Under the pieces are notes generated by a model, which was given only the letters and a program-made list of their open reading frames with translations, was not told the origin of the DNA and made no database searches. Of a stretch of DNA of 64,000 bases, positions 2,246-62,680 are shown in pieces. Source of the stretch: Diprion similis (taxonomy: Eukaryota > Arthropoda > Insecta > Hymenoptera > Diprionidae); contig NC_060114.1 of the NCBI RefSeq assembly GCF_021155765.1, positions 22,488,501 to 22,552,500 of the forward strand, in the 5' to 3' direction. The position numbers were made by a program, and so were the translations under genes. Positions within the stretch are counted from its first letter, which is position 1; every line of letters begins with the position of its first letter.

Positions 2246-5200
2246 CTATGGATAGAAATGAGTAAACATGTGAAAATGTTGCTTCAAATTATAAGATATT
2301 TTGGCACGAGTACGAAACGATACAAGTTTGATTGCTGTTTAGAGGTCCGTGATGTGATATTTTGTACGGTTACCACCTTGACCACTATTCACTTTCATAA
2401 AGTTCATCGATCTGTGGTAGGCAATGTATCATATACAGGGTGAGTTTTCTCTGGTGTCCCACTGGGAGGAGCTTGGATGTGCCGAGACTCGTGGAGACAT
2501 GAGCAGTCTCAGCACATCCATGCTCCTCTCACTGCGACAACAGAAAAAACTCCTCCTGTATATGAACGGTAGCCCAGCGGATAAAGTATTGTTTGCAATT
2601 CAAGAGTGACTGGGCCAAAATATCCAAAAAAGTGGCATTTTTTTACAATTAACAATCCATTTACAACCACATACAACAGGAGAAAATTAGTCGCTATAAT
2701 CGCTGTATAATAATGAGTTGAATCGAGACCAACATTTTTTCCGCATCATATTGTCAATTTCAAGTCTCGAATGATGCTTCGTTTCACCTACATCTAAACC
2801 GAATGGACAAGCTATACTGTATTTATTGACTACTGACAAAAAAAAAAGAAAGACAACGAAGGAAAGGTCAATACACTTTCAGGTATACCTTATATCTTCT
2901 CATGCACTGCTTTTTCGTTCTGCTGGGTATACAAGCAGCAATGTGATCCCATCTGTCTGGTACGGTTGCTGAATAAGTTTTCAGGGCCTGTTCCAAAAGC
3001 TTCTGTTCCACTGGTGTCCAAGACAGAGCTGTATCCTTTTTAACCTCCTTTTCTTTGGCAAAGGTTTCTTCATCTCCGACACTGCAATTCTGTGTTGAGC
3101 TGTGGTCAAGGATTCTGGTACTAGAATTACCATTTGTTAACGGATTGTCATGGCGCTCGGTAACTGGTGGCATTCTATCATCAATACCATCCTTGCCCTT
3201 CTTTTCAGCAATAAAGTTATCAAAAGCCTTTTTATTGGCTTGATCTTTGAGGCTAGACTTACTGAAATCAGTTGTCTGCAGGTCTTTGGCTTTAGCCAAC
3301 ACCTCTTTAGCAGTTCGAGTTACATTTGAAGATGCATTACAGTGTTGATTAATAAAGTTAGCGACAACATCCCATCGTTGGTTGGTACCAGCTGGAAATA
3401 AATTCACAGCCTTGATCAGTAGCTGAAGGTCATTTTCAGTCCAGAGGACTGTGGTAGATTTGGCATTTCTCTCAGGGGTGCAACTTTTTCTGTCATTAAT
3501 TTCTACCCCAGCCCGGCGTTCTTCCTCGATTTTGCGCTCTGTCTCCTCAACAACTTCGAGGAATCCCTTCCGACCTTCACTTTGTAACTTTTTCGTAACT
3601 TCCTCCAGCCTTGCAAGCTTAAACAGCTCGCAAATCTTTTCAACGCTTTCCATATGCTTGAGACTTTCACTAGGGTCACTAGTATAATAATCATTTCCCT
3701 TGCAGAGGTCCCGGATTGCCTTTCGTTCACGACGAAGGGCTTTCTTCTGTGCCTCGCGTTCTTGCTTCAAAGCATCGTTACGTGCCTTTTCCTCGGACTG
3801 CTTCCTCTCACTTTCGAGACGTTCCCGTTCTGCTACTTCTCTCAACTGTCGTTCTTCTTCGAGTTGTCTTGCTCTAGCCGCTTCCTGTTTAGCCCGCTTC
3901 GCAGCCGTCTTTCTCTCCTTGTCATCTCGCTGAAACTTCTTTATTCGGGGGTCTAAACTATAGGCGGTATCGACCAACGAACGAATTCGGGTCATTTCTT
4001 CTTTCTTTCGCTTCGCCCGTGTGGCCTTGTTTTTTTTTTCTATCCACTTTCGCATGTCTCGGCTGAAGTTAAAATACAAACCATGAGTCATGTATGGTGA
4101 TACATATAACAAACCGATAAATGGTAATCGAATTTTTTATCGATGCCGCTATAGTTTTGCATCGTACCAAGGACCCAAGGGAGTTTCGTGTTAAACCGGA
4201 TGGTACAGAGCAAGGCTATTCTGCCAAACCACAATGAAAGAAAAAAGGGTGGAGGTTTGAATGTCAGGAAGCGACCCATGCACATAAACACAATTCAAAT
4301 TGGGTGGCAGCAGTGCCGTGTACGGTTGGGTAATCTCTAGTCCTGCATTAATTCGATGGATTTGAGTATCTTGGCTGGGGTATCTATCTGCAAGGTTTCT
4401 AATGCAACTCCAGGGAGAGGAAAGAAGGATTGGTACTAGATTCGCAACACAAAGCACTACACTCCTCACAATGTTAGAACCAGCGGTAAACCGCAAACGA
4501 CTAATTCCAAGTTAAAAATTAGTGGCAACCCGTTATATTTATGGCACATGTCAAAATTAACATCATCTTTTTAAAATGTTTATATCACAATATGTATGCA
4601 TCATCTGTCTGGTCTAACAGCACAAATACCCTAGATGGTAAGAATGTGTAGTCTGTAAGTTCACCAGGGCGTTTTGCGTACATGCATGCTTGCGAGCGCT
4701 TCCTCCCCACTCGTATACCTCAACGGGTGTTCAAACATTGACTAGTAATGAGTGTAAAAAGAAAAAATAGAACTACCCTTGGGCTCGCTCGGGACCTGCC
4801 AAATTTGTCATGCCGATTGCATGGTGTAAGGAGTCGCAAATAAATTTTCTCAGAAGATGTCAAAGTTAGAGGTTCTTACTCTTGACCGCTTTCTTTGTCC
4901 TCTTCGTCAAGGTACGAGTATTCACGCCAAGACTCAAATTCATACCAAAATGAATAGAAACGTTCAACTTTTTCTCTAGGCGTGTCTGGACCTCCGAGTT
5001 GTGGCACTGGTTTCTTTTCTGACCACCTTGAATTATCCTGAAACGCTTTTCCCATAACCTGTAAAAAGAAAATCTGAGTTCTTGAATAATGTAACATTAG
5101 TCTGACTTGCGAATAATTTATGAGCAAAAAAGTCCATGCTAAAGACATTGAATAATGTCAACTGCATACCAACTCCTTTCGTGTACCTCATAAAAATTAT

Positions 5201-10311: not shown

Positions 10312-10540
10312 GTCATCGCCAAAGAAACGAAAAAGCAAACTGGTCTCCCGTTCGTCCAGTGGATCGGCCAGCTTCTTATATTATACATCCGCAAGTCGTG
10401 AAAATATCACTGCATATTGTGTATTCGCGTGGGTAAAATCGCCGAGGTTCCATACAACGAGAATCCGCCAAGTTGCGTGAAAAAGAGAAGAGCTTGGAAC
10501 CACTCCGGACAGCTAACGTGACAAAGTTGGAAAGGACAGA

Positions 10541-11431
10541 ATGGCCGCCGTCGAGTATTATCAGAACGAGAATAACGAGGAAGAGGAAACGACGCCGCCG
10601 ACGACGATGATACCCGGTGGTGGAGGTGGTCTCGGTTCGAACGCGGTCGGCGGCGTTGGCCAACACCAGCAAGGTCAACAGGCGACCGCCGGTATACCGG
10701 GACGTGATGACGAACGAAAGCTTTTCGTTGGCGGCCTGTCGCGTCACACGACCGACAAGGAGCTCCGCGATCATTTCGGTAAGTTCGGCGAGATTGAGAG
10801 CATATCTGTGAAGATAGATCCGTATACCGGTGTATCACGTGGCTTCGCATTCATGGTTTTCACCAATCCCAAGACAATTGACAAACTTCTTACATCCGGT
10901 GAACACTACATCAACAAGCGAAAGGTTGACCCTAAGCGGGTCAGCAAAAAAGCACAGCATGGCAAGATATTTGTTGGTGGTCTTACCCCAGAAATTACAG
11001 ACGATGACATAAAGACTTATTTCGGTCAATACGGTACAATCGTCGAACTTCAGGCACCTTTCGACAAGCTTAAGAACCAGCGCAAGGGTTTCTGCTTTGT
11101 GACATTTGACTCGCGGGAAGTTGTTTATAAATTACTGAAAACACCCAAGCAGATAATTAATGGAAAGGAGGTAGATGTAAAAAAAGTCAAGGTCAACCCG
11201 GAAGCCAGCCGTCAAGGGTTTTGGGGTAATCAGGGATACGGCTATTACGGGGGTGGTTATGGTTACATACCAGAATACGCCAATGGATACCAGGGTGGAT
11301 ATGACGATTCCTACGCCGCCTATGACTACACTGGTTACGAGGGCTATGAGAATGCTGGGTATTCGACACAGGCTAAGCCACGAGGCAACGGGCAGGGGCC
11401 GCGCCAGTTCCAGAGACACCAGCCTTATTAG
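10541..11431 (+). CDS. sqd: Squid-type hnRNP (two RRMs), single exon
   Basis: An hnRNP A/B-D family RNA-binding protein, 296 residues, acting in nuclear mRNA processing and in mRNA export or localisation. A flexible acidic then Gly/Gln-rich N-terminus (1-60) is followed by RRM1 (about 65-140: KLFVGGLSRHTTDKELRDHF, RNP1 SRGFAFMVF) and RRM2 (about 149-225: KIFVGGL, RNP1 RKGFCFVTF). The tail is Tyr/Gly-rich and ends RQFQRHQPY, the ending I associate with insect squid proteins. The start is the first ATG after a clean leader (gacagaATGG). The frame has no intron, whereas squid genes I know of are split, so it could be an expressed retrocopy. The tail is also poorer in RGG boxes than fly squid. 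Confidence 0.9.
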   Translation: MAAVEYYQNENNEEEETTPPTTMIPGGGGGLGSNAVGGVGQHQQGQQATAGIPGRDDERKLFVGGLSRHTTDKELRDHFGKFGEIESISVKIDPYTGVSRGFAFMVFTNPKTIDKLLTSGEHYINKRKVDPKRVSKKAQHGKIFVGGLTPEITDDDIKTYFGQYGTIVELQAPFDKLKNQRKGFCFVTFDSREVVYKLLKTPKQIINGKEVDVKKVKVNPEASRQGFWGNQGYGYYGGGYGYIPEYANGYQGGYDDSYAAYDYTGYEGYENAGYSTQAKPRGNGQGPRQFQRHQPY

Positions 11432-14545: not shown

Positions 14546-15499
14546 CATCGTCGCACTCTACCGCGAGTGACCGCGGGCGAGCAGCCACGAGCTCTGAAGT
14601 AGATCCGGAGTTTTCCTCATTCCAATTCTTATTTTCGCTCTCCGTAAAATCGGGGCTAACTGATCGTACCGCAAATGTTGTGGCTCCGTACTAAGCAATC
14701 GATTCCAACCCTAGATGGGGCGCTGATTAGGAAAATTGCAAAAATGTGTAAATATACTGTGCCTAAGTGTTTCGTAGGTTAGATAGATCAATTCGGTCCT
14801 TTTGAACCTGTGCGGATTACTAACATTTGTAATCTTGCAATACTAATAAAGCAAAAGGTGATGGACGCTGTTACGTTGCAACAAATTGAGTTGATTGATC
14901 AGCATCGCGCCACTATTTTTTAATGTTCGTTTCAGAGTGGCAGTAATGATGCACAGTGCTCTATGTAATCAAGATTAAATTCACTTTGATTACTTTAATG
15001 ATTTGTTCACGTAGCTTTAAAAGGCAACTTTAAGGAAAAAAAGGAATCGCCGACAATACTGGAAGTGCTTCTGCTTATCCCTCATACCAGATGCCGGAAT
15101 CGTTTGGCATTATATAGCCAAATGTTCTTTGATAACAAAAAAACGTTGAGTTTCAAGAAAATTATGTATAACAGTAATATTAAAGTCACTTTCAAATACG
15201 GCAACCTTCTGCTTGGTTAACGAGAAATAAGCATCTTAAAAGAATACACAAGCTTACAATCAAGTGACTTGTTTAAGCTCCATTGGTGGAAATCCACCCA
15301 TGTCTCGAACTTGTGAATCTGTTACACAGAGCGTGAAAAGTTATTTCTCAGTAGAAAATACCGGACGTCGAGCTATTTGCTTCATCAAGTTTTTAATTCG
15401 GTAAGATATTCTTTAAGTTCTGTGACTTCTCGGTAATCTTACTTTGTCTGATATTAATAGTAAAGGCTAATAATTCCAGGTACTATTGTGGAAGTCCTA

Positions 15500-18400
15500 A
15501 TGCTGAAAGAAAGTATCTCGCAGTACACAAACGTCCGCATAGACGAAGAGCCCTACATTAGGCTCAACAATGGATCAGATGGTAAAGTAACCATTCATTT
15601 CAAACGTGTATAGATTAGCTGGTAATATACCTTCCGGAGTTTGAACAGGAAATGTTCCATTCTCTTGAATCATATTAGTTATCTCTCCTTCCCTTTAACA
15701 ATCGGGAAATTTTCAAAAAGAGATTTTGATTAATTAATCTAAAGACAATAACAAAGCCACCTTAGTGCACAAAGAGTTATCCATCATTTATTTTGTTACA
15801 GCTTATGTAACAGAAACAGCAGGTGCCACGGAAGCTCTGAATTACAACCACACTATATACGATGTTTATTTTGTGACTCCTATACTCTGCATCCATTGTA
15901 AGTATTTTCTTGTTTACAGAAAGCTGCGGCTAGGCTAAAGTATCAAATGATTAATCGGTTACCTACTTTCAACTGTCTCATTTCCTATATTTAAGGTAAC
16001 GATTATATTTGGGGGACTGGAAAAGTGGGAGTCAAATGTAAAGGTAATATACCATATGATAATTTGACATATTGTTTACAAACACGCATATAGAGTCTGC
16101 GTAAATTCGCCAAAAATAAGCATGTGATCCTATTTTAGTCGTCTCATTCAAATCTACATGTCTGCCATTTTTTTTTTTTTTTTTTTGTTTACACAGGCAC
16201 ATAATTGTAGGATGATAAATTTCAAATAGTAAGCTGCATGGCAATAGTCAGTTTAGATTTATATTCTGTCACTGAATGTGTATCAATGGTGTACCTATGA
16301 ATCCGAAAGAACTAACACTCTTTCATCTTATCTTATGTTGCCTCATACGGTCACACTATGACTGCGTACCTGTGACAGCTTAGAGTTCTGTGAGCATCAT
16401 ATACATATTTATCATTTTATTTTTTTTTAATCTATAATTGCGAGCAGAGAGTCCATTCGATTATGACTATTGAGTCATGTATATTTTGAGCCAGCTTGTA
16501 GACAGTTCTTAGGATGCCTTCTTATTGCACATTGTTTATATCATTGTTCGAAAGATTGACCCTATAGCCTGATTCTGATTTTGTTTTCCCTTGTGCATGC
16601 GGCAATAATTATCATTTAGATCAATGGGAAAGCAAATACAACCGAAAAAAAAACGCCTCGATTATCCCTCGTACACTTCTAATATACAGCATAGAGCTGA
16701 GTTGCCAAGCATGGTTTTAAACTACTTTTCGAATACTATAAACCAAGTCATCTGAAATCGCCAAATGATGCATTGAATAAATTAATGATTGTATGAATTA
16801 CCAGAACATAATGTATGAACAACGTTTGAATTGTTGACAGATGAGTAAAAAAATATAGGGATACCTAGACGAACGTTGGCATTGTTGCAAGTGATGAAAA
16901 ATTCATCCTGGAGTACTCGCATTCATGCACATTACACGATCTACCGAAGTTCTTCTATTCCAAATTATATGTACCGCAATCACTGTAGTATAGAACTATT
17001 ACTAAATTCAAAATTAGGATAAATAGGCAACATTCTTTTAAGTACACGTGCAGAAATTGATTCTGCGATAGCTAATTTTTGTTGCTAGTCGATTACATTT
17101 GCAATGGAGAACTTCAGCCCCTAGCACGCCGCCCAAGCGATAAGCAGCGACATATTGAAATTCTCCATTCACAACGTAACTGGCCAGGTAGAAAAACTAG
17201 TCGCAGAATCAATTTTCGTTTGTGTTCCTAAATATTCTCAGGTGAATTCTCTTGAAAGAAGCTAACGGAGCGCATAAGATAGCCCTGTAATTGCTAGATT
17301 TGATTTTCCCTACCGGATAGAGTGGTGCATGTCCCACTCACACAGCGTACACTGCACTTTCCCAATGGAGACAGGTGAAAATAGACTGCCTGAAAATGAA
17401 ATTATTTTAAATTGTTTTCATCAATTACGTTTTTGCGATGAACTCTCATCTTTCTAAAAACCTAGACTCTGGCTTGTTTCAACAGTTTTCAAAACCTTGC
17501 CCCAATTCTGTTGTAGATTAAAAAATTGATTTTCAGGAGAAAACTGATCAAACTATATGTTTCATTGTACAATAATTGTTTGTTAATGCCTTGGGCTTCC
17601 GGCTAACTTGTTTTCGGTCCGAAACTAAATGAGAGTTCAATCACTATATCAATTATGTGACTATGACTCCCAATCTCACCTCGGCTGCATCGCCGGTCAT
17701 TCTCACATAATCCGTATAGAACGGAGCTCGCATTCTGTTTCGGACTGAAAACAAGTTAGGCGGAAACCCAAGATATTGAGGGGGTATCTAGTCGATTTTG
17801 ACGTTATCGTTTATATTCTCCACATATCGGAATCCCCTATCTCAAACGCGAGAAAGGGCTCAACAGTCCATTCTATGTGCATTTCTGAACAAAAACACTC
17901 AAATACATTTTCATTCGATGCAGAAATAACGAAATGGTATGGTTTCTACCAAATCGCAATTGTAAATTCGTGGAATTCGTACCGTTTCGCACCTCCTTAA
18001 TGAACATTACTACACGTATTTACATACATACACGTCTTGTTGTGCGCCACTACGGCGTTGTACAACGTTTCTTTATATCCTGCGGTTAATTAATGAAAGA
18101 TCTCTGCTCATTATTTTCTCGCGAATACGCACAACAATTTCATTCATTAATCATTTATTCTAGTGAGGCAACTGGATTGGTATTTTTGCATGTTATCTTC
18201 GTGATTTGGCTAAACATGTGAATGCATACATATATATAGGTGTGCAGATATTTGAGCGCTGTTTGTGAGAAAGATGCGGATATGAGAAAGGAAATTTGCA
18301 GTGTTCTGCAATTATCGACTCGACCTGAACACGAAATAATTCGGTGAAGTCGAGAAAACTGGCGCATTATCTCATTATCAGTCACGCCGTGTGCGGCCGC

Positions 18401-21400
18401 CGAGCGAAATGCTCTTACGGTTCACGTATCGCGCTCTACCATTCGGGGATCGTCGTGTCGCGTTTATCTAACCGGCTTTTCAACATTATAACTGACTACG
18501 CTTGCTGCGTACCCCGTGAAATTTTTATACTTTATCCGTCTTTTGGTTTTTGGCAAATGCGAGGGGAATTGCACTTGCTGCGCAACGAATGGAACCAGTT
18601 GAAAAAGCTGTATGTCAGTCACCCTTTTCCACGCTTTTGTCCTAACCCGGCCTTGCTGTCAGCTGGGCACGATTATACCCGAGCACGAGGCGACAATGAC
18701 CGAGTAACACATTCTTGTCGTATGATCGGCTAGCTGTCTATTGACTGAACCACGACTGAACTTTTCGAACCGGCCGGTCTAGCTAAGGTCGTACCGTCCT
18801 ACACAGCGAGCCGTCGTTGGGCGATTCTGTCGTGCGTGTGTGCGCTCTTCATTTGCGACCGAATATCCATAACCACACGCCCGCATCCACCGCACTATCT
18901 CATGTACACACGCGCTGCTCCATCTCTCGCCGACCATTCTATGGGCATGTGTGTAATACAAACATACACGTGCATACATAGGCGGGCTGATTAGTGAACG
19001 CAAACCCCCCTTCCCTCTCGCCGATTCCTTCATCCTCGCATCTCTCCACCCGTCCACCCTGCCCGTCTGCCCGTTACGTTCGTACTCCCTGGCTGTCGCG
19101 CTCCCACTCCCCATCATTCTTTCTTCGTCCTCTTTCCCTCTCTCTATCTCTCTCTCTCTTCATCTCTCTCTCTGCCCCACGTCTCTCGCCTCTGTTAGAT
19201 ATCAAACGCCCTCGGCCACGCGACTGGTTACCGCTCGGCGCCTGTATTATTTTCAACTCGATGAGCTGTTGAACTGTACGAATTTACACGGAAATCCTGC
19301 GCGGGTGTTACTATCCTTGGTCTGTCTCTAACTGTGCATCTCTTACTTTGGCCCTGTTATTGTTCCTGAGACATAAAATTAATGTCGGACTCACCTCGAA
19401 CGACAGATATGTTCATATTATACGTGTATATCTACACTCGTATCGTGCATGCGTGTCCGCGGTTCACACATTGATTATAAATGTATGTGCATAATACGGC
19501 TTACACGGAACCGCCACGGAGCACTACGGACGTATGTAGTACAATTATACAAGCACCGCTCCCCCCCTGAACAAGGAATGGAATACACCACATCAGTGCC
19601 CACGATATTGCATCAAATAACTCACAAGGGGGAAAAATAGAACTTTGAAGGAATGTATATCGATGTTATTATAACAACACCAGTACGGACAGCAAGACCT
19701 GACAGTATAAATTGCCAACGAAAAAATTCCAACAACATACACACATACACCGCGATACGGACAAATACTGCCAATGTTTAACAAGGTCCGGCGGAATGAT
19801 GACCGGTGGGCGACACAAGTGAAGTATGAAAAGGAAGTGTAAAGTTATCAATCAACGCCTGGTTTACACACGCGCCCATGTATAGGTAACTTGGAGGGAA
19901 CAATGAGTGTCGGATGCAAGTGTTGAATTGTGTCCACATCTAGGAAGATTTTTCGTGAAATGATATGGTGAGAAAGCGAGATAAATCAGTTGGGAAACAT
20001 GAGATAATCTTTCAAAACCCTGCGACTCCAAGGTTTCCAGCATTTCTGAGATAACTGCTCCGAACTCACGTGCAAAAGCATCGAGTGGCAACGGACCGTC
20101 CATGCTCTTCTGGTTCTCCTGTAATAACGAAATACCTAATCAAACCTATACCTCTGAGCATAAGGTTCGCTTGGATTGCGGAAGTATTTTCAGCTGATTT
20201 ATTCAGTTTAACAGCCATGACGATAATACACCAAGAGAGTATTATCTTTATTTCACCCGGTGTAAGGTAAATTTCACCATTGAATCACGATTACCTCTAC
20301 TATTTGTTGTATGTTAATGGAAATTCAATGGATATCTGAATTCATGTCAATTAACGACAAGAATTATCTCCGTCGTTCTTACGATTCGTATAGCGTTGCG
20401 TCGATTACATGAAACATAAAAAGCAGCGGAGGAACTTTAGTTGAGTTTCGCAATGAACCAAGTTAATAGCACAACTGCTACGCAGTCGCATTCCGGGACT
20501 GTGACAAATACGCGCAATAAGGATGGTAACATCGATCCGGATGACGACGACGAAGATGGCGATAATCTGGCAAACGACAGTCCTAGTCTCTTGGCGACCG
20601 AACTTAAGTCCGCACCGGTAAGATCCAGGCTTCTTACGGTCGATTCGGACAATTATATGCTGCGTCAAGGTCCCAGGGACCATCAGCTAGGTAGCGATAC
20701 AATCATTGAGAATGGTGGCAACCTAAAAATAACTTCACGAATGTTCGGCAACACAAACGGTGAGAATGTAATCGGTAAACCGATACGATCCCTTGGATAT
20801 GCCAATCTCAAGCTGTCTCCGACCATTAGAAACCCACGAATTGAGTCAGAGACCTTGCCAACCTACGACGTCCAGGCGTGTTATGCCGCGACGTGTTTTA
20901 ATACCGGAGAGGGCGATAAAGATGATTCGGCAAATACTGTTACTAACACAGCAACCCAGTTCAATAGTCATAACGATGAAATCCCGTATGTCCTACCTGG
21001 TTCAGGTCGAGTCAGCTGTGCTCGTCCTCTGTCCTTTCACCGTGTTGTATGCTGGTGCGGTAGTTTAGAGGATCTATCGAAAGCGCAATGCCGAAAAATG
21101 GACAATGAAGAATCAGATGCGTCTGTGAAAGGCGCGAGGACGTTGGAGTATCCTAGTGCTAGTAATAACAGTAATAGTAGCGTTAAAGGTAGCGATGCAG
21201 TGCGTAATCACACTTCGATTAATAACAGTTGCAATAAAATGGGACTACTCAAGGTATCCGCTAATGTGACAAATCTTTGTTGTTGTATGTGCGGTTCTTT
21301 GTGCCCAACAGAGTGCCACGCATGTTTTCACCTTGTCTGCGCCGAGTACAACGAACAACATTTATGTCAATGGATAGACAAGGATCCGGCACATTCCGGC

Positions 21401-24400
21401 ACTACGTACGATAAAGAAAAGGTTAGGATATTACCTTGAAGCGCAACTTTGATCTATTTCGTTCGTGCTTGTAGCCTTGACGAAGGTAACTCACCGACTC
21501 TACTTTCTGTTGTAGCCGGTCAGCGAGTGGACTGCCTCAAATGTGGTCGAATGGATGTCAGCCTTGAACCTTTATCGTTACGCAGACGTCTTCAAGTCCA
21601 AGGATATCAAAGGGAGTGACTTGTTCAACTTGGACCGGGAGAAGCTTGTGGTAAGCGGCAATCTCATGTCTTATACTGACAAATATACTGCAAACTTGCA
21701 AGTGTTTTGTATTATGTATTACGTATGTCCCCGCCCAGAATATGGGAATAAAGGATGAGTTTCACCAGAAGAATATATTGCTGTGTATCGAAGAATTATG
21801 TCATTCTGTACCACAAAATTCAACACCAACTGCTAATATACAACAAACGACACCTGGAGAGACGGCCCAGAATACCCCTGGTTCGACATCACCCTCAACG
21901 ATAACACAGAGCGGCATTCGTCATTCGCTCGTACCCCGTAGCTTCAGTGTTCTCGAAAGATGTGTCAAATGTAACAAGTATCTGCGCGGGTTGCTGCATC
22001 AAGGTTTCTTTTGTCAAGGTACATAAATTTTTTGATTTTCATCGTACCTGCGTTCTTTGACTTAATTAACAACCATTTCTGAAATAATCATGTTGACCTT
22101 TTCCAATTCATATGCGCCGGACACATCTAGGTACACGTACAGAGGTGGCTTCTGACCAATTCAAGGCCAACGGTACTATCTGCCACCGTCTATTTAACCA
22201 ACGTAGCAGACGACACGGGTTGCCTCAAATCGATCGGAATCCACCTCTGTAGGAGTACTATACTCGATACAGTTTGGGTCAGACGTGGAATAAATAATTG
22301 TGAAATTTTTCCCCCCACAGCGTGTGGACTGGTCGCTCACAGAACATGTTCTGCTACTGGTTTACCATCCGATTGCCTACCACCGGATGGAGATACCCAC
22401 CGTACCAACTTCAATGCAGGTGATCAGATATTTCTAACGTAGCTTGTCACAGATTTAGCGACAAACAACTATGTTTGCATACTTAATGCAACCACCCACC
22501 TGGTTTTACTTTTCCAGTCTTTGGTCTAGCATTGTGCTCCCAATTTGACACAACGACGCACACAGCGCCGATCTTGGTTGAAAGGTGCACCCATGTACTC
22601 GAGGATCATGCTTTAACTGACAATACTCTGGATTTGTACAAAGTTTATCAAAGTACACCTCCCAATGAGCAAATGCTTGAACTTCGCCAAAAGATAATCG
22701 ATGGTGAGAATTTATCTACATACGAATCTGTACATTCTGTATCAATAAGTACACGTACAGTAGCAGAACTTACTAACGATTTGGTCTAGCATTCGCAGGG
22801 CTTGGAATTGTACAGTTGTAACTAAAGTAGGGGGTAAGCCCCTACTGCACGTAGCCAGAAGACCAGGGGCTGGTACTGGCCACTGTACGGTCAATAACGA
22901 AGTATCGGTATAAATAGTAACTATCTCGTGTAGGATGGAAAATTCGTTGTATTTTAATTGCTATGTGTATAGGATGAACGGAAGGATTCAGTTGATTTTG
23001 GTTCCATTCAACAGGGCTTTTTTCAACTCGAAACTGATTAGATTTTGGATCCGATTTGTACAGTAGTTTTCGAGTTATTGAAATGAAAAAACGAAAACGG
23101 CTATGATCAAATTCATTTATTAATGTTACGAGCAGGCATATGACAGTGCCACGAAGCTGTTCATAACGCGAAGTAAGAGCAGAGTCCCATACAAATATCT
23201 CAAGAGACTGGTGATAAAAATGTATTAAAAAAATTACAATTATTGACAACTTGAAAGAATCTCGTTACAACAGAGGGCTCACCGCAACTGGATCGTGAAG
23301 TGTGAAGATCAAATAAGGCGTTGTTTTTTAAACTTCTTTTACTTCGGTCTCACTAAGATGATTCAGTCGGTTATTTCAAGTCATCGACTCGATCATTAAA
23401 TATTTCGCAATACAGACTTTTGGAAGCCGATATAGTCAATACGGAATTTTGAACATTGTAATTTAGCCTAATTAATGTAACTAAGCTAGTAAACATGCGT
23501 GTGAATAATATTCCTTTTTTTCACAGATGTGAGTAATGTAGATCTCTCAAACTACAGTCCTCAATGCATCGCAAGTTCACTTAAGAAATTTTTGCGAGAA
23601 CTACCAGATCCTGTAATACCCGTCCAGTGGTATGATACTTTTTTAGAAGCTTCCAGTAAGTATTTTTTTGGATATGACTAGTAGGAACTTCGCACTATTA
23701 GGAACCCTTGCATAACGATATAGCTTCTGGAGAAAGAATAAGGCAGTCTGCGGGGAAGGCATAGCCAAATAAGCTTTGTCTAAACATTGTTTGCATACGC
23801 TTACTCTTTGTTAAGTTTCATCTCCACTTGTGAAGGAACAAATTAAATATATATTTTTTATTTTTATTTTATTTTTATTTATAATCAACGGGTAGACCCC
23901 TTTACAGATAGATTGAAAATACAATATTTGAGTACATGGGTTTATTTGATATTGAGGCTGAGCAGTACTAATGATACCTATTAACTAAACATTTTAATGC
24001 TACTTTGAACTGAGACAAGCAATTTATGCTCGAGATACCAGACGGTATAACAACCTTGTTCCATTTTCGCCTTAACCGCGGAATCGTGGAGTAATAAATA
24101 TAGTCCCGGGCAGAGTTACGTTCAATATACTCCCTAAAGATTCTCAGATCATAACGAGAATCCCGTCTTTCAAATAGATTGGATGAGGCATCATCTTTTA
24201 CAAGGTTTGACTGAACTTTTTTTTACGAAGTATAGGTCATGATAAACATGCAGCGATTTTAGAGACTCTAGATTGAGAGAGGAGGCAAGAGCACTATAGT
24301 CGTGATCATCGTATTTGATTTTGATTCTCATTTTAAAAGCGATGTATATAAATATAATTTTGACCCGAAAAGTCGGGACAGAGGTCACATTGTTTTATCC

Positions 24401-27400
24401 TACTTTTCTTCGAGCTGCGCAAACTGAGCTATACTAATACTGGAAAGTGTGCTAACGATTCTCTTTCGTGCAGTAATAGGATTCTGAGAGAAATACCTTA
24501 CTTGCAAATCGATCGATATCTATATCTTCGTCTTACCGTGTCAGGCGTGCTGACGTCGAGGTATCGCATAGCATTTAAAAAAAAGTCAGTCTATGAACAT
24601 ATACAGCATCGCACTCGTGTAAATTTTCATAAAATAAAATTCAATTGTAACAAAATGAAATGTCAGGTTAGCGATGAATAACCCCCCGAAACTGTACAAA
24701 TGGTACCGTATTTTATGCTGCGACAAGGTAATGTACGTTCTTATTTCGCTCGAAGGAGTTCTCACCCTATAAATGGCTCGAAAAAGATCCAGATACGAAG
24801 AGTAATCACTGGCAGCCGTCTCTCTCAGCGTGGAACAAGATCGTCGTTGCGAGATCAAATATCGATACAGCGTAACGGCTCTCCACTGTGTGCTATTTGT
24901 AGGTCGCAGACATCGATATTTCCTCCATAGCAGCAGCTAATTTTGATGCTCGCTGCGCCAAGCCTGTGCCACCTATTATGTGTATCTGACCAAATGAATT
25001 TTACGGCTGTTACAGAACTTCGTAATGACGAACAGTGTACCAAGTGCCTTTTCAAATTAGTCGATGAACTTCCGGAACATCATAAAAGCACACTTCGTCA
25101 TCTAATGCTACATTTCTGCCGTATATGTCGATTACAACATGCTCGCGGCTACAGAGAACCACCGACAATTCTTATTCAAGTTCTTTGTCACATATTTCTA
25201 CGTCCGCCATGGGAGCGCATAATGTGAGTATAAGAAAATTCAATCGTTTCACCTGATGCCGTCAGAGGGTTCGAAGTATCGAATGTCATCCGTTTCACTC
25301 ACGGGTGGTATGCTTTTCAGCTGGATTCGGGGATTAAAATTTGGACAGAGGGTGATGTTTCGATAAAAACACTAATCGTTTTAGGGTTCCCGAATAATTC
25401 TTTGTCAGTGCCGTATAGCACACTGACGTCAAACCTCCTCCGTTTAATTTCATTGTAAATTCCTGTGTAAAAATTTCTGCTCTAAATGTACCCGCGCCAC
25501 TTTTTTTCGCGGTCGAAACGAACACATTGGGTGTTTTGTCAAAATTAAACATGTCATTGTCTAACTATTGACCAATATGACGTAGATTGACCTCCGAGCA
25601 TTCGTATGTGCTTCCGTGAAAATACATGAGGTACATGCGATTTTGAAAATACCTCCAGCAATCTCAAGATGTTTGCCTGGGAGTAAAAATGCATAACCGT
25701 TCTATGTTCATTTTTTCATATTAATTATTTGTTTAGGTGTGTAAAACAGAAACACTAGGGAAAAAGAGACGCGTTCCCCTTCCAAGAAGCTGACGCTCCT
25801 GCGTGCCGGGTTGATTTACTTACAGACTACGTATCGCTAACTATACCGACCAAGTTGAACATTCCGATGATATTACTGTTTTCTTTTAACATTTGAGATT
25901 TGGATGATTCAAGCATTTCCTTAACTAACAATAACACCGTTCGTGTCCCGTCACAATCCATTGTGTTCGATTATACTTGCAGTCAAGTCGTTCATAATAC
26001 GGAGGCCCACATTCGCATTATGGAGTTATTGTTGCTTCGCGGGGACTGGGGTGATAAACTACCAGAATTCGCAAGCGCACCCCAGTTACCTCCCCGCAAG
26101 GTATCAAGGCCACAGTTTCCCGTCGTCGATCAATTTTCTACTGTTACGACGAGTGACGACGATTGCTGTACAATCGGTAATGAGAAGTCGACGACAGATA
26201 GTAATGGCAAAGATCAGGTACAGCAGCATCAGCAACAGCAGCAGCATCGGTAAAAATTTTTGACTGGTTCAATATGATACGATTGTTTCGATGTTTGCTC
26301 AATACTATCGATTTTGTACAATTAGGCCTCGCAATCTCCAGGAAGCCGAATGGTACTGGGGCGATATAACCAGAGATGAAGTCAACGAACGACTGACCGA
26401 TTCGCCGGACGGCACATTTTTAGTACGTAACGCCTCGTCAAAGGATGGGGAATACACGCTCACATTGCGGAAGGGTGGTGCAAACAAGCTCATTAAGATT
26501 TGTCACCGCAACGGCAAATATGGTTTCTCGGAGCCTTTTAATTTTCAATCGGTAGTCGAATTAGTCGACCATTATCGAAACTGCTCTTTAGCTCAATACA
26601 ACTCGACATTGGACATTAAACTTCTCTACCCTGTATCGAGGTTTCAACAGGTGAGTAAGGCCAGCGGTGCATTCGTTTACCTGGTATTACGCATGAAATA
26701 TACAGTATTCCAAATGTTGCTTGCCAAAATTTAAAAAGATCCGTCATTCGCTATGTCGAGTGAATAATCATTAAATTCTAAGAATAGAAAAATTGGAGAA
26801 ACAATTCATTTTACCACTTATTGACTAAACTCACGTTATTCGTAATATGCTTAACGACAGGACGACGACATTGGCGGCATGACGGACATGAAGAATGTGA
26901 TCCAAAAATTTATCGAACTGGATAGGGAGTTGAACAATGCGATGAAGCAGTATGACGATTGCTCAGAATTATATTTACGGACGTCACATGAAGTGCAACT
27001 CAAACGACAGGCTCTAGATGCGTTCACGGAAGCCATCAAAATGTTCGAGGATCAAATGAGGCTACAGGAAAGATTTCAAAAGGAAGCTCAACCCCATGAA
27101 ATCATGACGTGAGTTATAACCGAATGTGTAAACTTGATAGTTGAACTGACACAAAATGTATACTCCTCACATAAATTATCAGGCCCTACCTGTTTTTTTT
27201 GTTTGTTTATTTATTTATTTATTTTTTTGACGAAAAATATTATTACCTATTTCAAAGTGCCGTAACTTTGCGAAAAATGTAGGTAGACGAATGAGTAAAA
27301 ATGCATTTTAAACTTTAGAACGTCTAATTCAAATCGCGTTTTCAACATTTGATTTACACCTATTCGTTCTAAATTATTTTTCCCATTAGTTCACAGAGTT

Positions 27401-30400
27401 ATGCTACTTTGAAACATCTTGTAACAAGTTTGTGGAACACGGTCCATCTTCTAAGTACCGCACGGGACGCGAATTTCGTCTCTTTTTTTTTTCTCGAACC
27501 TTGAAAAGCTTGAAAATTTTCCTTTAAATTGCTTTTCCGTAACACATGCATCGAAAGTCCCTCCTTTGCACACTTCTCAAGATGTGTCCGAGAAGTGGCA
27601 CTTTTTAGAAGGTTAGGCGCCGCACATGCATAGGTCGACTACAGTCTCTTTTGTACCTACTAGTTACTTTTTAGCACGCTTTGTTTTCAACCCGTACTTA
27701 CTTTTTTTGCACGCTACACAGGAAAAAGTGTGACTTTTTCTGCACTCTTTGCAAGAAGTAGCATGCGACACCCGCGCGAAGAAGCGAATTCTTGAGCAAA
27801 GTTACGAAGTCGGCAGCACACGGCTTTGGCTCGGGCAGCCAACATCGTAACTTTCGTTAAAAGTCAGCTCTCTTGCGCTACTGTCGCAAACTACTGTTAT
27901 GAAACTTTCTCTACAATTTTTTCTTGTCGAATTGTAGAGCATTGAACAAACTATAATGGACCATGCAACTTTTTTTTCAGCTTTGATTTCGTCGACAAAC
28001 GACCTTGTAAATTCATTAATTGTAATCTGAAGTTTGATTCAAAAAAGCTTATGTTGTAACGGTGATCCAGTTGGCCCCTCGAACCACATTGAAGTTTAAA
28101 AGATCCCCTTCAAATCTTGTTTCTAGCATTTGCGCTAAAACGCTCGTTCTTACCGAGATATTCAATCCTAAACAGGAATGAGCGCTTTCAATTTACCTGC
28201 GGCAATAGGGGGCCGTTTGTCAATTGACTCTCAGTCTCTTGCATTGACTCATTTCCTTCAAGATTGTTTCAAATCTTACTCTTAATTATAATACGCATTA
28301 TCCAAAGACTAAATAATTAATTTAAAAAAATCAAAAAAATCTTTGACGTATGTCAAATAATAACGTGTTTTAGCGTAACTGAACCGTTTCCAACGAAATT
28401 TTAACTATTTAACGCTTTTTAGGGAAGCTCAAGCTAAAATCTTACGTAAAAAGGGGAAGGGAAGGTCCGAGAAATCTTATATATTCTTACATGGGGGTGG
28501 GAGGTTGAAAATGGGCAAAATTCTCCTTAGGTAGTTAATGCACGGCCCCTAGCATCATCCAAGATGTACCATGTGGAGGTTGCACTGCAGGATTTACGCC
28601 TTGTGTACCTCTGAAAAATACTGATTAATTCAATAGAAGTACACTAAAAAACTGAGTCGTTATAAGTACATAATTTTTTCTTTACACTCATTCTACAAAC
28701 CCTCTCGCAGACAACGGAATAAAAATTTTCCATCCTGTACGGTAGTTTGAAGTTGGACCGTATTTCGCAAATTTGTCACAACTTGCTTCAAAGTAGAATA
28801 ACTCCGAAACAAATAGGTGTACGTCAAATGCTGAAAAAGCGATTCAAACTAGACGTTTGAAGCTTTAAAGTGTATTTTTAATCATCTCACTATGTACATT
28901 TATAACGGAGTTACGGCAGTTTGAAATACCACATTTTTTTTTTTTTTTTTATCGAAAAACAGGTAGTCTATTAATTTTTGTGAGGAGTATATAGTGTCTA
29001 TCTGGTATGGAATAAAATCACGCCACACCTATAAATGAAACAATCAATTTTGCGTCAGTACAGTTTGATGTCGCGACTTTGTTTCATTCGTCAAAATCAA
29101 ATGAATATGCATAGATTTGCAAATAACGAATTGGGGAAAAAACTGTAAGTGGAAAAGATTGGATCGTAGATACTTCGTTTTGAAAAAGTGATGTTGCGAA
29201 AATGATGTTTGACACGCGCTTCTACAGTAACGTATGACATAATTGGCCTATTTTTGCTTCTGTCGCAGAGTGAAATAATTAAACTTTACCACCAGGCAGT
29301 CCGGTCTAGTTTGCAATTTATTCTAATATACTCTTTTACCGAATTGCATCGGCACGTCAATAGATTGTATTATCGAAACATAATAATTTCATACGTACAA
29401 GGGGATGTGCTTAAATTTTTTCTTCCACATTTATGCAAAGATCGATTGATATTATCTGCTATAATGATGCCCTGCTTGGGTTTTAAAAAAAGTTCCGTGC
29501 CAGATCCGCCGAAATTCTAGTCGAGTAGTCTAAGGTGAATATTTAAATGAATTTGAACGTAATCTACATTTACAGCCTCACTACAAACGCCGAGGTATTG
29601 AAGCAGCGGCTGATATCTTTGGAAGAAAGCAAAGAGCAACTGGATGATAGCTTGAAGCAACAAATTGCATACCATAGAACTCTGGAGCGTGAGATGCACC
29701 AACTGAAACCAGAAGTAATTCAACTCAGCCGGCAGAAGGATAAACATCAACTGTAAGTGCAATATCTCGGACACCCGGCTGCCCTGTGCGTTAAATACAA
29801 AGTTAAACTCTGTGAAAAGACAGGATTACAGTGATCCTATCCGACTCGAATTACTTTTATCTCTTGGTTTTAACGAATATGGTCATATTTCCCTACAGAT
29901 GGTTAAAGAAGAACGGTATGAAACAGCAACGAATCAATCAGCTGGCATCTAACCATTCGTTGGCAAATACAGCCGTCGTCGCAGATTTACAAGAGTCCGA
30001 CTTGGAGGTGCACGCTGATGAAAAAACGTGGTTGTTTCTTGAAGTGACGCGAACCGATGCCGATCGGTTCTTGGCTGGTAAACCGGATGGGACGTTTCTT
30101 GTTCGACGATCCACCACGGGACAATACGCTCTTTCTATCATGTGAATAATCTTTTATTACCTTTCTCCTTTTCCTCTTTTCAATCATGCTAGAGATATTT
30201 ATTGCTAATCAATAAGTATCGTGTTAATACTTTTGAAACATTTTCTTCAGGTGCAACGGCACGGTGAATCATTGCATAATATATGACACCGAACGAGGAT
30301 TTGGATTTGCCGAACCCTACAATATTCATGAATCATTGAAGCATCTCGTTCTGCACTACGCTCAGAATTCTCTGGAGGAACACAACGAAAGCTTAAAGAC

Positions 30401-30470
30401 TACGCTGGTCTACCCAGTGTTCGCTTCGCCGACCGCCCTGAGTCGGCTTCAAGCACAAATGCAGGTATAA
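15500..30470 (+). CDS. PI3K class IA regulatory subunit (p85-type), long isoform
   Basis: Adaptor that binds and restrains p110 and recruits it to phosphotyrosine motifs. Exons: 15480-15581 (ATG at 15500, tentative), 15802-15897, 15996-16043, 21312-21421, 21516-21650, 21739-22018, 22321-22419, 22518-22703, 23527-23655, 25016-25223, 25983-26249, 26326-26650, 26861-27108, 29576-29752, 29899-30141, 30251-30470. All junctions are GT-AG and in phase, giving about 950 residues. Order: C1 zinc finger (H-x12-C-x2-C-x13-C-x2-C-x4-H-x2-C-x8-C), SAM, second C1, RhoGAP-like domain ([11 protein letters not shown]), nSH2 ([20 protein letters not shown]), inter-SH2 coiled coil (p110 binding) and cSH2 ([15 protein letters not shown]). 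No SH3 is present. The first residues before the C1 could extend into unseen exons. The arginine-finger position reads LYKVYQS. Confidence 0.85.
17051..17219. mobile_element. MITE-like inverted repeat in PI3K intron
   Basis: Left arm agaaattgattctgcgatag and right arm ctagtcgcagaatcaatttt pair, with an inner pair caatggagaa / ttctccattc. About 170 bp and non-coding. It sits in the intron upstream of the alternative first exon. Confidence 0.65.
17590..17772. mobile_element. MITE with 36-bp terminal inverted repeats
   Basis: Positions 17590-17625 and 17737-17772 are inverted copies with about three mismatches (left begins cttgggcttccggctaactt, right ends acaagttaggcggaaaccca then ag). The 183-bp element has no coding capacity. 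No obvious target duplication was seen. Confidence 0.8.
19139..19182. repeat. CT-dinucleotide rich tract
   Basis: Polypyrimidine run of ctctctctat and ctctctctct blocks within the GC-richer segment upstream of the alternative PI3K exon. On the opposite strand it would be a GAGA-type sequence, which in insects can bind GAGA factor; that role is inference. Confidence 0.6.
20453..21421 (+). CDS. Alternative first coding exon of the PI3K regulatory gene
   Basis: An ATG at 20453, just after an in-frame TAG, opens a frame of 323 codons that runs without a stop to the donor AAAG|GTTAGG at 21421 and is in phase with the SAM exon. The first 286 codons are specific to this exon: acidic ([10 protein letters not shown]), Ser/Asn-rich, with no domain that I recognise. 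The last 37 codons are the same exon used by the long isoform through the internal acceptor at 21310-21311. The product would be about 1161 residues: this N-terminus, half of the first C1, then SAM to cSH2. The length of the open frame argues for real coding. A Cys cluster (CCCMCGSLC, residues 276-284) precedes the amputated finger. Confidence 0.7.
22138..22251. mobile_element. Small MITE in PI3K intron
   Basis: Perfect 11-bp inverted ends, tacagaggtgg (22138-22148) and ccacctctgta (22241-22251), around about 90 bp of non-coding sequence, between the exons that encode the two halves of the second C1 finger. Confidence 0.65.
27160..28993. mobile_element. 1.8-kb foldback element in the PI3K inter-SH2 intron
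   Basis: The left end (atactcctcacataaatta near 27160, then acctgttttttttg) is the inverted copy of the right end (aaaaacaggtag, then tgaggagtat near 28985). The arms extend inward: aaacatcttgtaacaagttt and taactttgc near 27260-27430 pair with acaacttgcttcaaagtag and related blocks near 28770-28920. Arms are about 230 bp and the interior about 1.3 kb, with no long frame. It lies between two exons of the p110-binding coiled coil and must be removed by splicing. Confidence 0.7.
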
Positions 30471-40304: not shown

Positions 40305-52917
<12,613 letters not shown>

Positions 52918-54389: not shown

Positions 54390-55022
54390 TTATAGGTACA
54401 CGGTCCGGCGATACAAGTAGGTGTTCAAATACTTCCATCTCACTATGACAAAGTCTGCTAGATAGTACAACATCTTTCCACTTAAAGACAGTGTCTTGAC
54501 TCGACAGAAACTCTCGATGAATATTATTCGTGCATTTGTGAGAAACATCAACTTAAAAAAAAAGATAACAATGCACAACGGTACACAGGTTCCTGGACCG
54601 TTGCATAAAATTAAATCAGGATTCTGAGTCCATACAAGGGGGATAGAGTCGAAGGTAGCAAGTAACGTCGTGATAACAGAAGCCGAGTAAGACTGACGAA
54701 CCTCTCGGCTACGGCGGATGTCAAATACTTGATAATCGGTTGCAGTTCCCTCCAAAGTCCTGACTTTTGCTTCGCTGATGGTGTCTGTACTAGCCCGAAC
54801 ATAGATTCTTGGAGAATAACGTTCCAATTTCATAGTAGTTATGATACGTAGAATCTCTGTGGTGTGACCACCGGACCCTAATACTATCATTGTTCGGACC
54901 GGATGCCGTCGCGATTTCACTTTCGGTATGCGTCCGTTCAGCCAAAGGATGACATATAGCATCCTCAACAGCAGTGCGACCAGAAATGCACACGAAGCTC
55001 CGAGTATATGGGCTAAATACAT
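54390..55022 (-). CDS. ALG14: ALG14, membrane anchor of UDP-GlcNAc transferase
   Basis: ALG14 anchors catalytic ALG13 to the cytosolic face of the ER, where the pair adds the second GlcNAc to dolichol-PP-GlcNAc in N-glycan assembly. The 210-residue frame starts at the first in-frame ATG (55022); an open extension to 55055 lacks an ATG. An N-terminal membrane segment (about residues 8-28, LGASCAFLVALLLRMLYVIL) is followed by the family motifs MIVLGSGGHTTEILRI (about 45-60), NPDLILCNGPGTCVPLCIV (about 133-151) and IFIESFCRVKTLSLSGKMLY (about 166-185). A second hydrophobic stretch (IVIFFFKLMFL) precedes the last. The length matches the family. The C-terminus (RRTVYL) stops a few residues short of the usual YxGxL-type end, so a tiny last exon cannot be excluded. 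No intron otherwise. Confidence 0.93.
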   Translation of the reverse strand: MYLAHILGASCAFLVALLLRMLYVILWLNGRIPKVKSRRHPVRTMIVLGSGGHTTEILRIITTMKLERYSPRIYVRASTDTISEAKVRTLEGTATDYQVFDIRRSREVRQSYSASVITTLLATFDSIPLVWTQNPDLILCNGPGTCVPLCIVIFFFKLMFLTNARIIFIESFCRVKTLSLSGKMLYYLADFVIVRWKYLNTYLYRRTVYL

Positions 55023-55492
55023 CACACCCTGGCTGTTGACAGGCGATGCAGACAATCGAACCCAACAACGTTATCCCCGGTTACTGTACGGTAGGTGATT
55101 GCTTATAATCGTTGCAATCGAATTCACCTCATTCAAAGTAGAGACGTTGGACATACGCAGGGGATATAAGCTAGTCTAGAAATAAGAAAAATTATATGTA
55201 AACACGGATATGAAATAACTCTTTTGGATCAATATATATTCATAGAGTATTCGTTACACATTTGCATCGCAGAGGTTTAATCAATCATGAATTACTCGCG
55301 AAAGTACAGATTGTCAAGTTACAGAAAATCAGTAGAGGTTATGTTCTTTAAGCCATTGAGTAACCATTGTGCGGAGGGTAGAGAGAAGGAGGCCCAACTC
55401 GGCGCTACCACGTGATGCCAAAACTGAAGGAAATAGTAACTCTTCTTTTCGCCGCTAGGTGGCGCCCACAACACCATTTCTTGATGTATATT

Positions 55493-60149: not shown

Positions 60150-60780
60150 TTAGCACCGTACATGAACACCAAAGGACAACCCAGGCGTCAAGTAGCGTAG
60201 CCTCGGTATCGTTCTGTAAAAGACACGGTCGAAAAACCGTACACGCACACCAAAGGGTCGAGCCAGGTATCGGGCATGTGGTATCGACGTTCTCCAGTCG
60301 AAAAGATGGTCAAAGCCCCGTACGCACAACAAGGGGTAAGACAAGCGTCGGGTACTCTAGTCTGGCAGCTTTCCGAGCGGAGCGCTGCTGCGCTACAATC
60401 GCGCTTGAGACCAGTTAGTTCTGAGCGCCCGCGCTGTGCCCGCGTGGCGCTGTAAGCGCGCAGCGTGCGGCTGGTTGGGTGGGGGAAAAGCGAGCACGAG
60501 TAGTGAGCAACCAAGTTCGGAGGGAGGAGCCCGGCAAACGGGTGCGTCGTCGCGAGAGAATCGGTTCGCTTTCCGCCACATATGTCACAGTAGGGAAACC
60601 GCAAAAGGTGACCGTGGCGCCGGAAAGTCAGAATAAGCTCGGTCATCTCACGACAGTGACGCTCCAGACGCGAATCGATCCAAAATCGCCCTGAAAAGTT
60701 TTGGAACATCCGGAAGACAAATCCAGCCACCGCGGTGAAGAAATGTCCTTTGAAGCACCTAGCCGAACGAAGGACTCGGA
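60150..60780. repeat. Diverged copy of the 62.7-63.3 kb satellite
   Basis: Contains gaaaaggtgaccgtggcgcc-like sequence then ggaaagtcagaataagctcgg near 60604, matching cgaaaggtggtcgcggcacc then ggaaggttggaataagttcgg in the 63-kb tandem array. Near 60680-60770 it has caaaatcgccctgaaaa and gcggtgaagaaatgtccttt, matching caaaatcgccccggaaaa and gcggtgaaaaaacctcctt at 62700. GC-rich compared with its surroundings. Long open frames on the minus strand here reflect base composition. Confidence 0.65.
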
Positions 60781-61212
60781 GGATATTGACAGTCAGAATA
60801 AAGCGAATTTGAATGTGTCTAGTGTGTAGTGGGTGCTGCTTTCCGAAACGCTTACGCACAGGCGGGTGCAAAAAAACGGCCAAGGAGGCCGTGGTTCGCG
60901 TATGTTTGGTACGAGTTCGGATATCCGCGACAGTGGCTAATAGGAGGTTGGATTGAGCTCAGGGACTTCACCAACTCAGCTGGGGTTCAGGCACAACACA
61001 AATGTGAGTACGTGAAAGTATAATATGTTTACGGCAGACAAAAGTTGACATAAGGTGAGCCTTTCCGGAACAATGGCATCATGAGGTGAGAATCATGATA
61101 GCTTTCCCGAAAAAGTCGCAGCCCAGGGTTAGAATTCATTCAGGTTAGTCCATGTCAAATCACAATCACGTCGATCATTATAAGTGAAGAGTTATCACCT
61201 TCGGTCGACGAT

Positions 61213-61500
61213 TTCAATCGGTAGTCTGGTTTAGGTCAGGTTTAGGTCAGGTTTAGGTCAGGTTTGGGTCAGGTTTGGGTCAGGTTTCGGTCAGGTTTCG
61301 GTCAGGTTTAGGTCAGGTTTAGGTCAGGTTTAGGTCAGGTTTAGGTCAGGTTTAGGTCAGGTTTAGGTCAGGTTTAGGTCAGGTTTAGGTCAGGTTTAGG
61401 TCAGGTTTAGGTCAGGTTTAGGTCAGGTTTAGGTCAGGTTTAGGTCAGGTTTAGGTCAGGTTTAGGTCAGGTTTAGGTCAGGTTTAGGTCAGGTTAGGTC
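61213..61500 (+). repeat. Telomere-variant array, TTTAGGTCAGG units
   Basis: About 26 copies of an 11-base unit (ggtttaggtca). Early units vary (ggtttgggtca, ggtttcggtca); later ones are uniform. Each unit equals a 6-base plus a 5-base telomere-like word (ggttta + ggtca). The array grades through ggttaggtca directly into pure TTAGG. Confidence 0.95.
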
Positions 61501-61605
61501 AGGTTAGGTTAGGTTAGGTTAGGTTAGGTTAGGTTAGGTTAGGTTAGGTTAGGTTAGGTTAGGTTAGGTTAGGTTAGGTTAGGTTAGGTTAGGTTAGGTT
61601 AGGTT
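61495..61605 (+). repeat. TTAGG telomeric repeat array 1
   Basis: About 21 perfect head-to-tail copies of TTAGG, the insect telomere unit, with the G-rich strand reading left to right. It is followed by the unique boundary ttatagccatgaccaccggt, the same boundary seen after the second array at 63567-63642. Confidence 0.97.
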
Positions 61606-61990
61606 ATAGCCATGACCACCGGTCGACTTCCGGTTTTTGAGTGAACTTTTTCGGATTTTTTCCGCTCTTTCCAATGCCGCTAATTATTCCAAAATCTACC
61701 GGGCCGTTTTTGAGATTTTGAGGGGGGGGGGGGGGGCAAAAATGGGGGGGGGGGGGCTAGGGGGGGGGGGGGTGGGTCGGGTGCAGGATCCCCCCGCCCG
61801 TTATGTCCCCCACGGCCCCCTCCCCCCTCCCCCATTTGACCCCCCCCGGGGGGGGTGGGGGGGGAACGGTTGCTGGACCTATTTGGTCCTGGCATGAACT
61901 TTTCAGCCCTTGATTTATCGAAAAAAATGAGCCCCTAACCAACCCTCTCCGTAGCTTGGTTCAAAAGATAGGCGTTTTTCGAAAAATATC
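61600..61990. repeat. Satellite block with extreme G and C runs
   Basis: After the TTAGG array comes ttatagccatgaccaccggt, then G-runs up to about 15 long (61722-61772), then C-runs and another G-run (61788-61865). Several G-runs on each strand are close enough to form G-quadruplexes. The whole block recurs at 63637-64000 with small differences in run length. Open frames across it are artefacts of the homopolymers. Confidence 0.9.
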
Positions 61991-62250
61991 ACCCACCTAA
62001 CCTGACCCGACCCAACTCAAAAAGTGATGGTCGGACGCATAAAAGTTCTGCGCACCCGTTTCCGATGTCAGACTGACACCCCCCCTCAAAACCCCCCCCG
62101 CGGGGGGCGTGGGGGGGGAACCGTCGCTGGACCTAATTGGTCCAGACATGAACTTGGTAGAGCTTGATTTATCGAACAAAACGAGCCCTCAACGAACCCT
62201 CTCCGTAGAACGGTTCAGGAGATATGAATTTTTGAAAATTATTTCGCACC
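61835..62250. repeat. About 255-bp diverged tandem pair
   Basis: Sequence from ggggggggaacggttgctgg (about 61857) recurs from ggggggggaaccgtcgctgg (about 62111), each followed by ggacctaattggtcc-like, gatttatcgaa(c/a)aaaa(c/t)gagcccc and ccctctccgtag. Two units at perhaps 75 percent identity. Confidence 0.75.
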
Positions 62251-62339
62251 TAACCTAACCTATGTCGGAAACAACGGAAATTTTCTAAGTTTTTTTTCGA
62301 AATTTTCGTCACACAGAAACTTGTTTTTTAGGCGTTTCA

Positions 62340-62680
62340 AACGATTCTGAGCCGATCTGTACCTATTTCGCGGGAACTTTTTTTTTTTTTTTTGAACGCA
62401 CAACCCCAAAAACTTTGAAATTTTTCGAATTTTGAAAAAAAAAAATGTTACTCAGAGACTTGTTTTCTACGCGTTTCGAACGATTCTGAGCCGATCTGTA
62501 CCTATCTCGCGGGAACTTTTTTTTTTTTTTTTGAACGCACAACCCCAAAAACTTTGAAATTTTTCGAATTTTCAAAAAAAAAATGTTACCCAGAGACTTG
62601 TTTTCTACGCGTTTCGAACGATTCTGAGCCGATCTGTACCTATTTCGCGGGAACTTTTTTTTTTTTTTCTTCCTAATTCC
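62340..62680. repeat. 138-bp tandem repeat, about 2.5 units
   Basis: cgattctgagccgatctgta, cctat(t/c)tcgcgggaactttt, a T-run, gaacgcacaaccccaaaaac and gtttt(c)tacgcgtttc recur with gggaac starts near 62372, 62511 and 62649. On the minus strand the units are open and give a Lys-rich repeat peptide, which I take as an artefact. Confidence 0.9.

Follow-up and report, generated by a model that had tools for sequence, protein, structure and literature searches.

The window, a stretch of 64,000 nucleotides of the Diprion similis genome, carries on its plus strand a gene for the regulatory (adaptor) subunit of PI3K, an enzyme of growth signalling; its coding region is split into sixteen exons:

15500-30470, plus strand: whole gene, coding exons 1 to 16, encoding 950 amino acids followed by a stop; an in-frame chain in which 15 of 15 introns are GT-AG
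15500-15581, 15802-15897, 15996-16043 and 21312-21421, plus strand: coding exons 1 to 4
21516-21650, 21739-22018, 22321-22419 and 22518-22703, plus strand: coding exons 5 to 8
23527-23655, 25016-25223, 25983-26249 and 26326-26650, plus strand: coding exons 9 to 12
26861-27108, 29576-29752, 29899-30141 and 30251-30470, plus strand: coding exons 13 to 16

Several other features were recognized in the window. On the minus strand at 2868-4136, an exon holds a Zuotin homology domain, a RAC head and two Myb regions (Pfam), and presumably belongs to a DNAJC2/Zuotin-like protein. The PI3K gene is preceded, at a distance of 4 kb, by two RRM stretches encoded on the plus strand at 10517-11431, in what we take to be an hnRNP-like protein. 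Three open frames at 44719-52720, also on the plus strand, contain pieces of protein kinase domains, one of them under the Pfam cut-off, and we assume that they may form a gene of the S6-kinase type with two kinase domains. An Alg14-like gene lies on the minus strand at 54393-55070 (Pfam, 6e-60). The long open frames at 60191-63311 lie where the window is richest in G+C; the two that were scanned gave no Pfam match, peptides are repeated at 62.4-63.3 kb, and the region is perhaps a tandem repeat rather than a group of genes.

Exon structure and a candidate alternative first exon

The exon chain agrees with the sixteen in-phase exons that a preliminary description of this locus had proposed, with matching phases at the joins. 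Two donor choices at exon 5 and two at exon 6 make four in-frame variants of the model possible. Of those possible we took the better donors, 21650 (GTAAGC) and 22018 (GTACAT). The donor at 22018 is preferred because it keeps Cys249 of the second C1 domain (C1-2), which the alternative at 22012 drops, and all zinc ligands of C1-2 are retained in the chosen variant. The RhoGAP match described below covers exons 8, 9 and 10, and the alignment with the BH domain of p85alpha reaches the proline-rich linker by way of exon 11; homology thus backs two junctions of the preliminary description, 22703 to 23527 and 25223 to 25983.

The 5' part of the model is less secure. The start codon, Met at 15500, is provisional, since the open frame extends 5' of it (15464-15613) and an AG is present at 15478-15479, so that a coding exon further upstream is possible. 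Codon bias gives no support to the joined exons 1-3, which score 0.038 in their own frame and 0.061 in another, and these exons stand on their match to the first C1 domain (C1-1). The weakest join of the model connects exons 2-3 to exon 4 across 5.3 kb. In a splice search against PKC-beta C1A, a reference picked after its match had appeared, the real sequence scored 87 at this join, against 27 for the best of 40 simulations in which the simulated upstream regions had equal freedom of splice-site choice; the best 80 last exons were kept for each sequence, real and simulated. The Cys/His spacing is by itself not decisive for C1-1, as 4 of the 30 upstream regions that were simulated contain it.

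Exon 4 also lies inside a long open frame that would offer a second way into the gene:

20453-21421, plus strand: candidate alternative first coding exon, 323 amino acids, running through exon 4; open frame, in phase with exons 5 to 16

The frame extends over 332 codons (20441-21439), has a Met at 20453 and passes through exon 4 in frame. Joining 20453-21421 to exons 5-16 gives an open form of 1161 amino acids, which would have other sequence in place of the first half of C1-1. The segment is single copy in the genome, and GC-rich stretches lie 5' of both first exons, at about 14.2-14.8 kb and 18.4-19.6 kb. We regard 20453-21421 as a probable alternative first coding exon of this gene. The frame could instead be open by chance or be a piece of another transcript, an explanation that we do not favor but that has a real chance of being correct. 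Its codon score of 0.126, the best in its own frame, is borderline when compared with the 95% point of the background (0.124; background maximum 0.189), the second half of the frame on its own receives no codon support (0.019, versus 0.020 for a reverse frame), and no Pfam family matches it. However, no open frame exceeded 240 codons when 64-kb sequences were simulated 60 times, and the candidate crosses exon 4 in the right frame, yields the open 1161-residue form and lies downstream of a GC-rich stretch.

Domain content and genomic relatives

When the 950-residue product is scanned with Pfam, the domains come out in the order C1, SAM, C1, RhoGAP, SH2, iSH2, SH2, which is the order proposed in the preliminary description for a PI3K regulatory subunit:

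15849-21367, plus strand: C1-1 (residues 44-94), over exons 2, 3 and 4; Pfam C1_1 29.4 bits, PKC-beta C1A 7.3e-10
21522-21798, plus strand: SAM domain (residues 115-177), exons 5 and 6; Pfam SAM_1 1.2e-12, DGK-delta SAM 7.3e-12
21922-22376, plus strand: C1-2 (residues 219-269), exons 6 and 7; Pfam C1_1 38.6 bits, beta2-chimaerin match
22568-26034, plus strand: RhoGAP/BH domain (residues 301 to about 475), exons 8 to 11; Pfam RhoGAP 1.4e-22 (residues 301-429), p85alpha BH 8.8e-14
26351-26575, plus strand: N-terminal SH2 domain (nSH2, residues 556-630), exon 12; Pfam SH2, p85alpha alignment
26645-29944, plus strand: iSH2 coiled coil (residues 654-812), exons 12 to 15, p110-binding by homology; Pfam PI3K_P85_iSH2 1.6e-54
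30029-30419, plus strand: C-terminal SH2 domain (cSH2, residues 841-934, approximate, placed by eye), exons 15 and 16; second Pfam SH2 stretch, p85alpha alignment

In the scan of the whole product C1_1 (6e-12) and SH2 (9.2e-35) each match in two stretches, and both C1 domains lie above the Pfam cut-off of 26.5 bits when they are scanned as separate pieces. The p110-binding coil is present, with 184.3 bits for PF16454 (cut-off 31.5), and the two SH2 domains that flank it align with p85alpha (PDB 5m6u, which we take to be the human protein) over 388 residues with an E value of 1.8e-117. The RhoGAP/BH domain, recognized both by Pfam and by its match to the p85alpha BH domain, precedes nSH2. Judged by these homologies, the product is a class IA PI3K regulatory subunit of the p85 type. 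An N-terminal SH3 domain, which marks the vertebrate form but is not shared by the whole family, is absent among the Pfam matches to the 950 residues with E values up to 1, and one might lie in an undetected upstream exon. C1-2 and the RhoGAP domain together match beta2-chimaerin (1e-19), which is the best solved match to that stretch.

The genome that we searched comprises 269 Mb in 60 contigs. An exon-by-exon search for iSH2 returned five candidates, two of which were matches, both of them exons of this gene, and one p85-binding site of a p110 was found. Within the limits of this search, in which the iSH2 count is a lower bound, the gene appears to encode the sole class IA regulatory subunit. 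The corresponding search for C1 domains, whose count is likewise a lower bound, gave at least 22 matches, none of them within the window; the two C1 domains described here were missed because introns split both. Elsewhere in the genome (G000:C12:7041771-7043300, plus strand) a complete RhoGAP domain lies about 1 kb from a C1 domain, perhaps in the RacGAP1 orthologue, and the pair provides an in-genome comparison for C1-RhoGAP tandems. With the nSH2 exon, no relative was confirmed in prokaryote and viral collections: two pattern searches gave 118 and 8 matches, and tblastn gave none. Conservation in other eukaryotes was judged from published papers.

Residues of the C1, SAM and RhoGAP domains

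According to passages of PMC9110374, the C1 consensus contains, in addition to the zinc ligands, four strictly conserved positions (P241, G253, Q257 and G258 in PKC-delta C1B), and the QG motif is essential for agonist binding. At these positions C1-1 has P, G, V and G, with V70 replacing the Gln of the QG motif, and C1-2 has L, G, Q and G, with L229 replacing the strict Pro; C1-2 also has Arg at two cage positions. Neither domain thus has all four strict residues of a DAG-sensitive (typical) C1. As it lacks the QG-motif Gln, C1-1 should be insensitive to DAG or respond weakly, and DAG sensing by C1-2 is doubtful on its sequence; weak or joint DAG binding by the two domains may occur.

These substitutions bear on the proposal, made in the preliminary description, that the C1 fingers could bind DAG and bring PI3K to membranes independently of phosphotyrosine. 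In both C1 domains the seven zinc ligands examined are intact, as are three of the strict positions, C1-1 resembles PKC C1A, two weak C1 domains could act jointly, and in passages of PMC12817958 the authors of a study of shrimp p85alpha speculate that C1 and SAM may aid its recruitment to the plasma membrane. However, each domain has lost one of the residues in question, and the same passages report that in High Five cells shrimp p85alpha stays mainly in the cytoplasm when no partner is co-expressed, which, as no DAG stimulus is stated, argues against constitutive recruitment only. Co-expressed with the viral protein IE1, shrimp p85alpha co-localizes with it at the plasma membrane, and the co-precipitation of the two is stronger with Src64B overexpression and weaker with a Src-kinase inhibitor (PMC12817958). 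The shrimp data fit recruitment led by tyrosine phosphorylation, DAG stimulation lying outside that experiment. The proposal of DAG-driven recruitment is weakened by these observations, and we consider it improbable for this protein.

The SAM domain finds its nearest solved relatives in DGK-delta (28 of 72 residues identical) and Shank2. The SAM domains of these two proteins polymerise; many other SAM domains do not self-associate. The preliminary description was right about the presence of a SAM domain, and its suggestion that the domain could oligomerise is plausible because of these nearest relatives, similarity being the one argument for it. In vertebrate p85, N-terminal dimers are driven by SH3-PR1 and BH contacts, as described in a passage of PMC7458397. 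By analogy, the SAM domain could take over the dimerising work that SH3-PR1 performs there.

The RhoGAP domain has no finger-loop arginine, the residue expected of a catalytic RhoGAP. Residues 318-345 contain one Arg only, R340, which is part of an LRQ segment aligned to human ELRQ. The finger arginine, presumably R151 in human p85alpha, is faced by K in the alignment with chimaerin, whose finger-loop motif is LYRVSG, or by Q328 in the alignment with the p85alpha BH domain. R451 occupies the place of human p85alpha R274, which a review describes as the arginine finger of p85alpha towards Rab5. Ranked by similarity, the nearest relatives of this RhoGAP domain are p85alpha, Myo9b and RacGAP1, and those of the human p85alpha BH domain outside p85 are Myo9b, ARHGAP15 and N-chimaerin; these rankings are not a tree and give only a hint on the descent of the C1-RhoGAP tandem. 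To our knowledge, ARHGAP15 has no C1 domain. The missing catalytic residues and the alternative first exon are the parts of this locus that are worth following up.

Recruitment, descent and known relatives

We favor, with a probability of roughly 75%, the reading that the gene encodes a p85-type subunit with a C1-SAM-C1 head that serves as an adaptor, and that its recruitment is led by phosphotyrosine. The gene structure, the domains, their homology and the missing residues are read directly from the DNA, and from them we infer p110 binding, self-association, GTPase binding and an order of recruitment. By homology, the iSH2 coil would hold p110, and the SH2 domains would take the complex to phosphotyrosine sites. 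The C1-SAM-C1 head, a kind of head known from a shrimp, would stand in for the vertebrate-type SH3 region and act mainly as an adaptor, with the SAM domain providing self-association, the role of the SH3-PR1 contacts in vertebrate p85. The RhoGAP domain and the C1 domain beside it would form one structural unit, in which the RhoGAP would be catalytically weak or inactive and would bind small GTPases. Phosphotyrosine would remain the main driver of recruitment to the membrane, to which the C1 domains would contribute no more than a weak contact.

A reading as two neighbouring genes, one for C1-SAM-C1 and another for p85, which were joined on paper only, would fit the length of several introns but is very unlikely, because the exons of C1-2 and RhoGAP are 98 bp apart (22420-22517) and jointly match the C1-RhoGAP of chimaerin, the exons of the RhoGAP domain run on to the p85 linker, the only Met of exon 8 is residue 336, within the RhoGAP domain, and a similar combination is published for shrimp (PMC12817958). 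The exon chain and the domain order of the preliminary description are confirmed at the level of sequence, and the head and the p85 core very probably belong to one gene.

On the origin of the head we offer a tentative suggestion that may well prove wrong. The C1-SAM-C1-RhoGAP arrangement might be the old animal form of the PI3K regulatory subunit, derived from a chimaerin-like C1-RhoGAP tandem, with the vertebrate SH3 and the headless fly forms as later replacements; in Diprion similis a second promoter would produce an isoform in which half of C1-1 is exchanged, and the choice of isoform would thereby switch C1-1.

Models of PI3K recruitment rest mostly on vertebrate p85 and fly p60, and neither has a C1-SAM head. 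The gene described here is a complete example of such a head, and our search of its genome found no other iSH2 gene. With the residues missing for DAG sensing and for GAP catalysis named, the role of the head can be tested by defined mutants, and does not have to be guessed from domain names.

The build itself is not of a new kind. Passages of PMC4617754 (2015) list C1 domains in the N-terminal part of p85 homologues from Mollusca, Cnidaria and Ichthyosporea, and SAM domains in those from Mollusca, Arthropoda and Choanoflagellida. For Penaeus vannamei, PI3Kp85alpha is described with a pair of C1 domains together with a SAM domain in passages of PMC12817958 (2025). The architecture was thus already known in arthropods, and the evolutionary interest of the gene is moderate. 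The insect subunit is named P60 in PMC8075199, in passages that leave C1 and SAM unmentioned, and among titles and the beginnings of abstracts in the openly licensed literature we found no report of an insect p85 with both C1 domains and SAM.

Of the closest known systems, the P. vannamei protein is likewise a p85 subunit to which a SAM domain and two C1 domains are added; its SAM domain is called N-terminal in the passages of PMC12817958, and the likeness is one of domain content as described there. The class IA subunits from Arthropoda, Mollusca, Cnidaria, Choanoflagellida and Ichthyosporea in PMC4617754 share the RhoGAP and SH2 core with an N-terminal SAM or C1; for Arthropoda the passage lists SAM and not C1, whereas the D. 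similis gene has both. Human p85alpha (PIK3R1) has the same RhoGAP/BH domain, proline-rich linker, nSH2, iSH2 and cSH2, but carries an SH3 domain where this protein has C1-SAM-C1, and its finger-loop Arg is absent here. Drosophila Pi3K21B/p60 consists of the SH2-iSH2-SH2 core that is also found here, without RhoGAP, C1 or SAM. Chimaerins, as does this protein, place a C1 domain directly before the RhoGAP domain; however, their order is SH2-C1-RhoGAP, whereas in the D. similis protein the SH2 domains follow the RhoGAP domain and flank the iSH2 coil.
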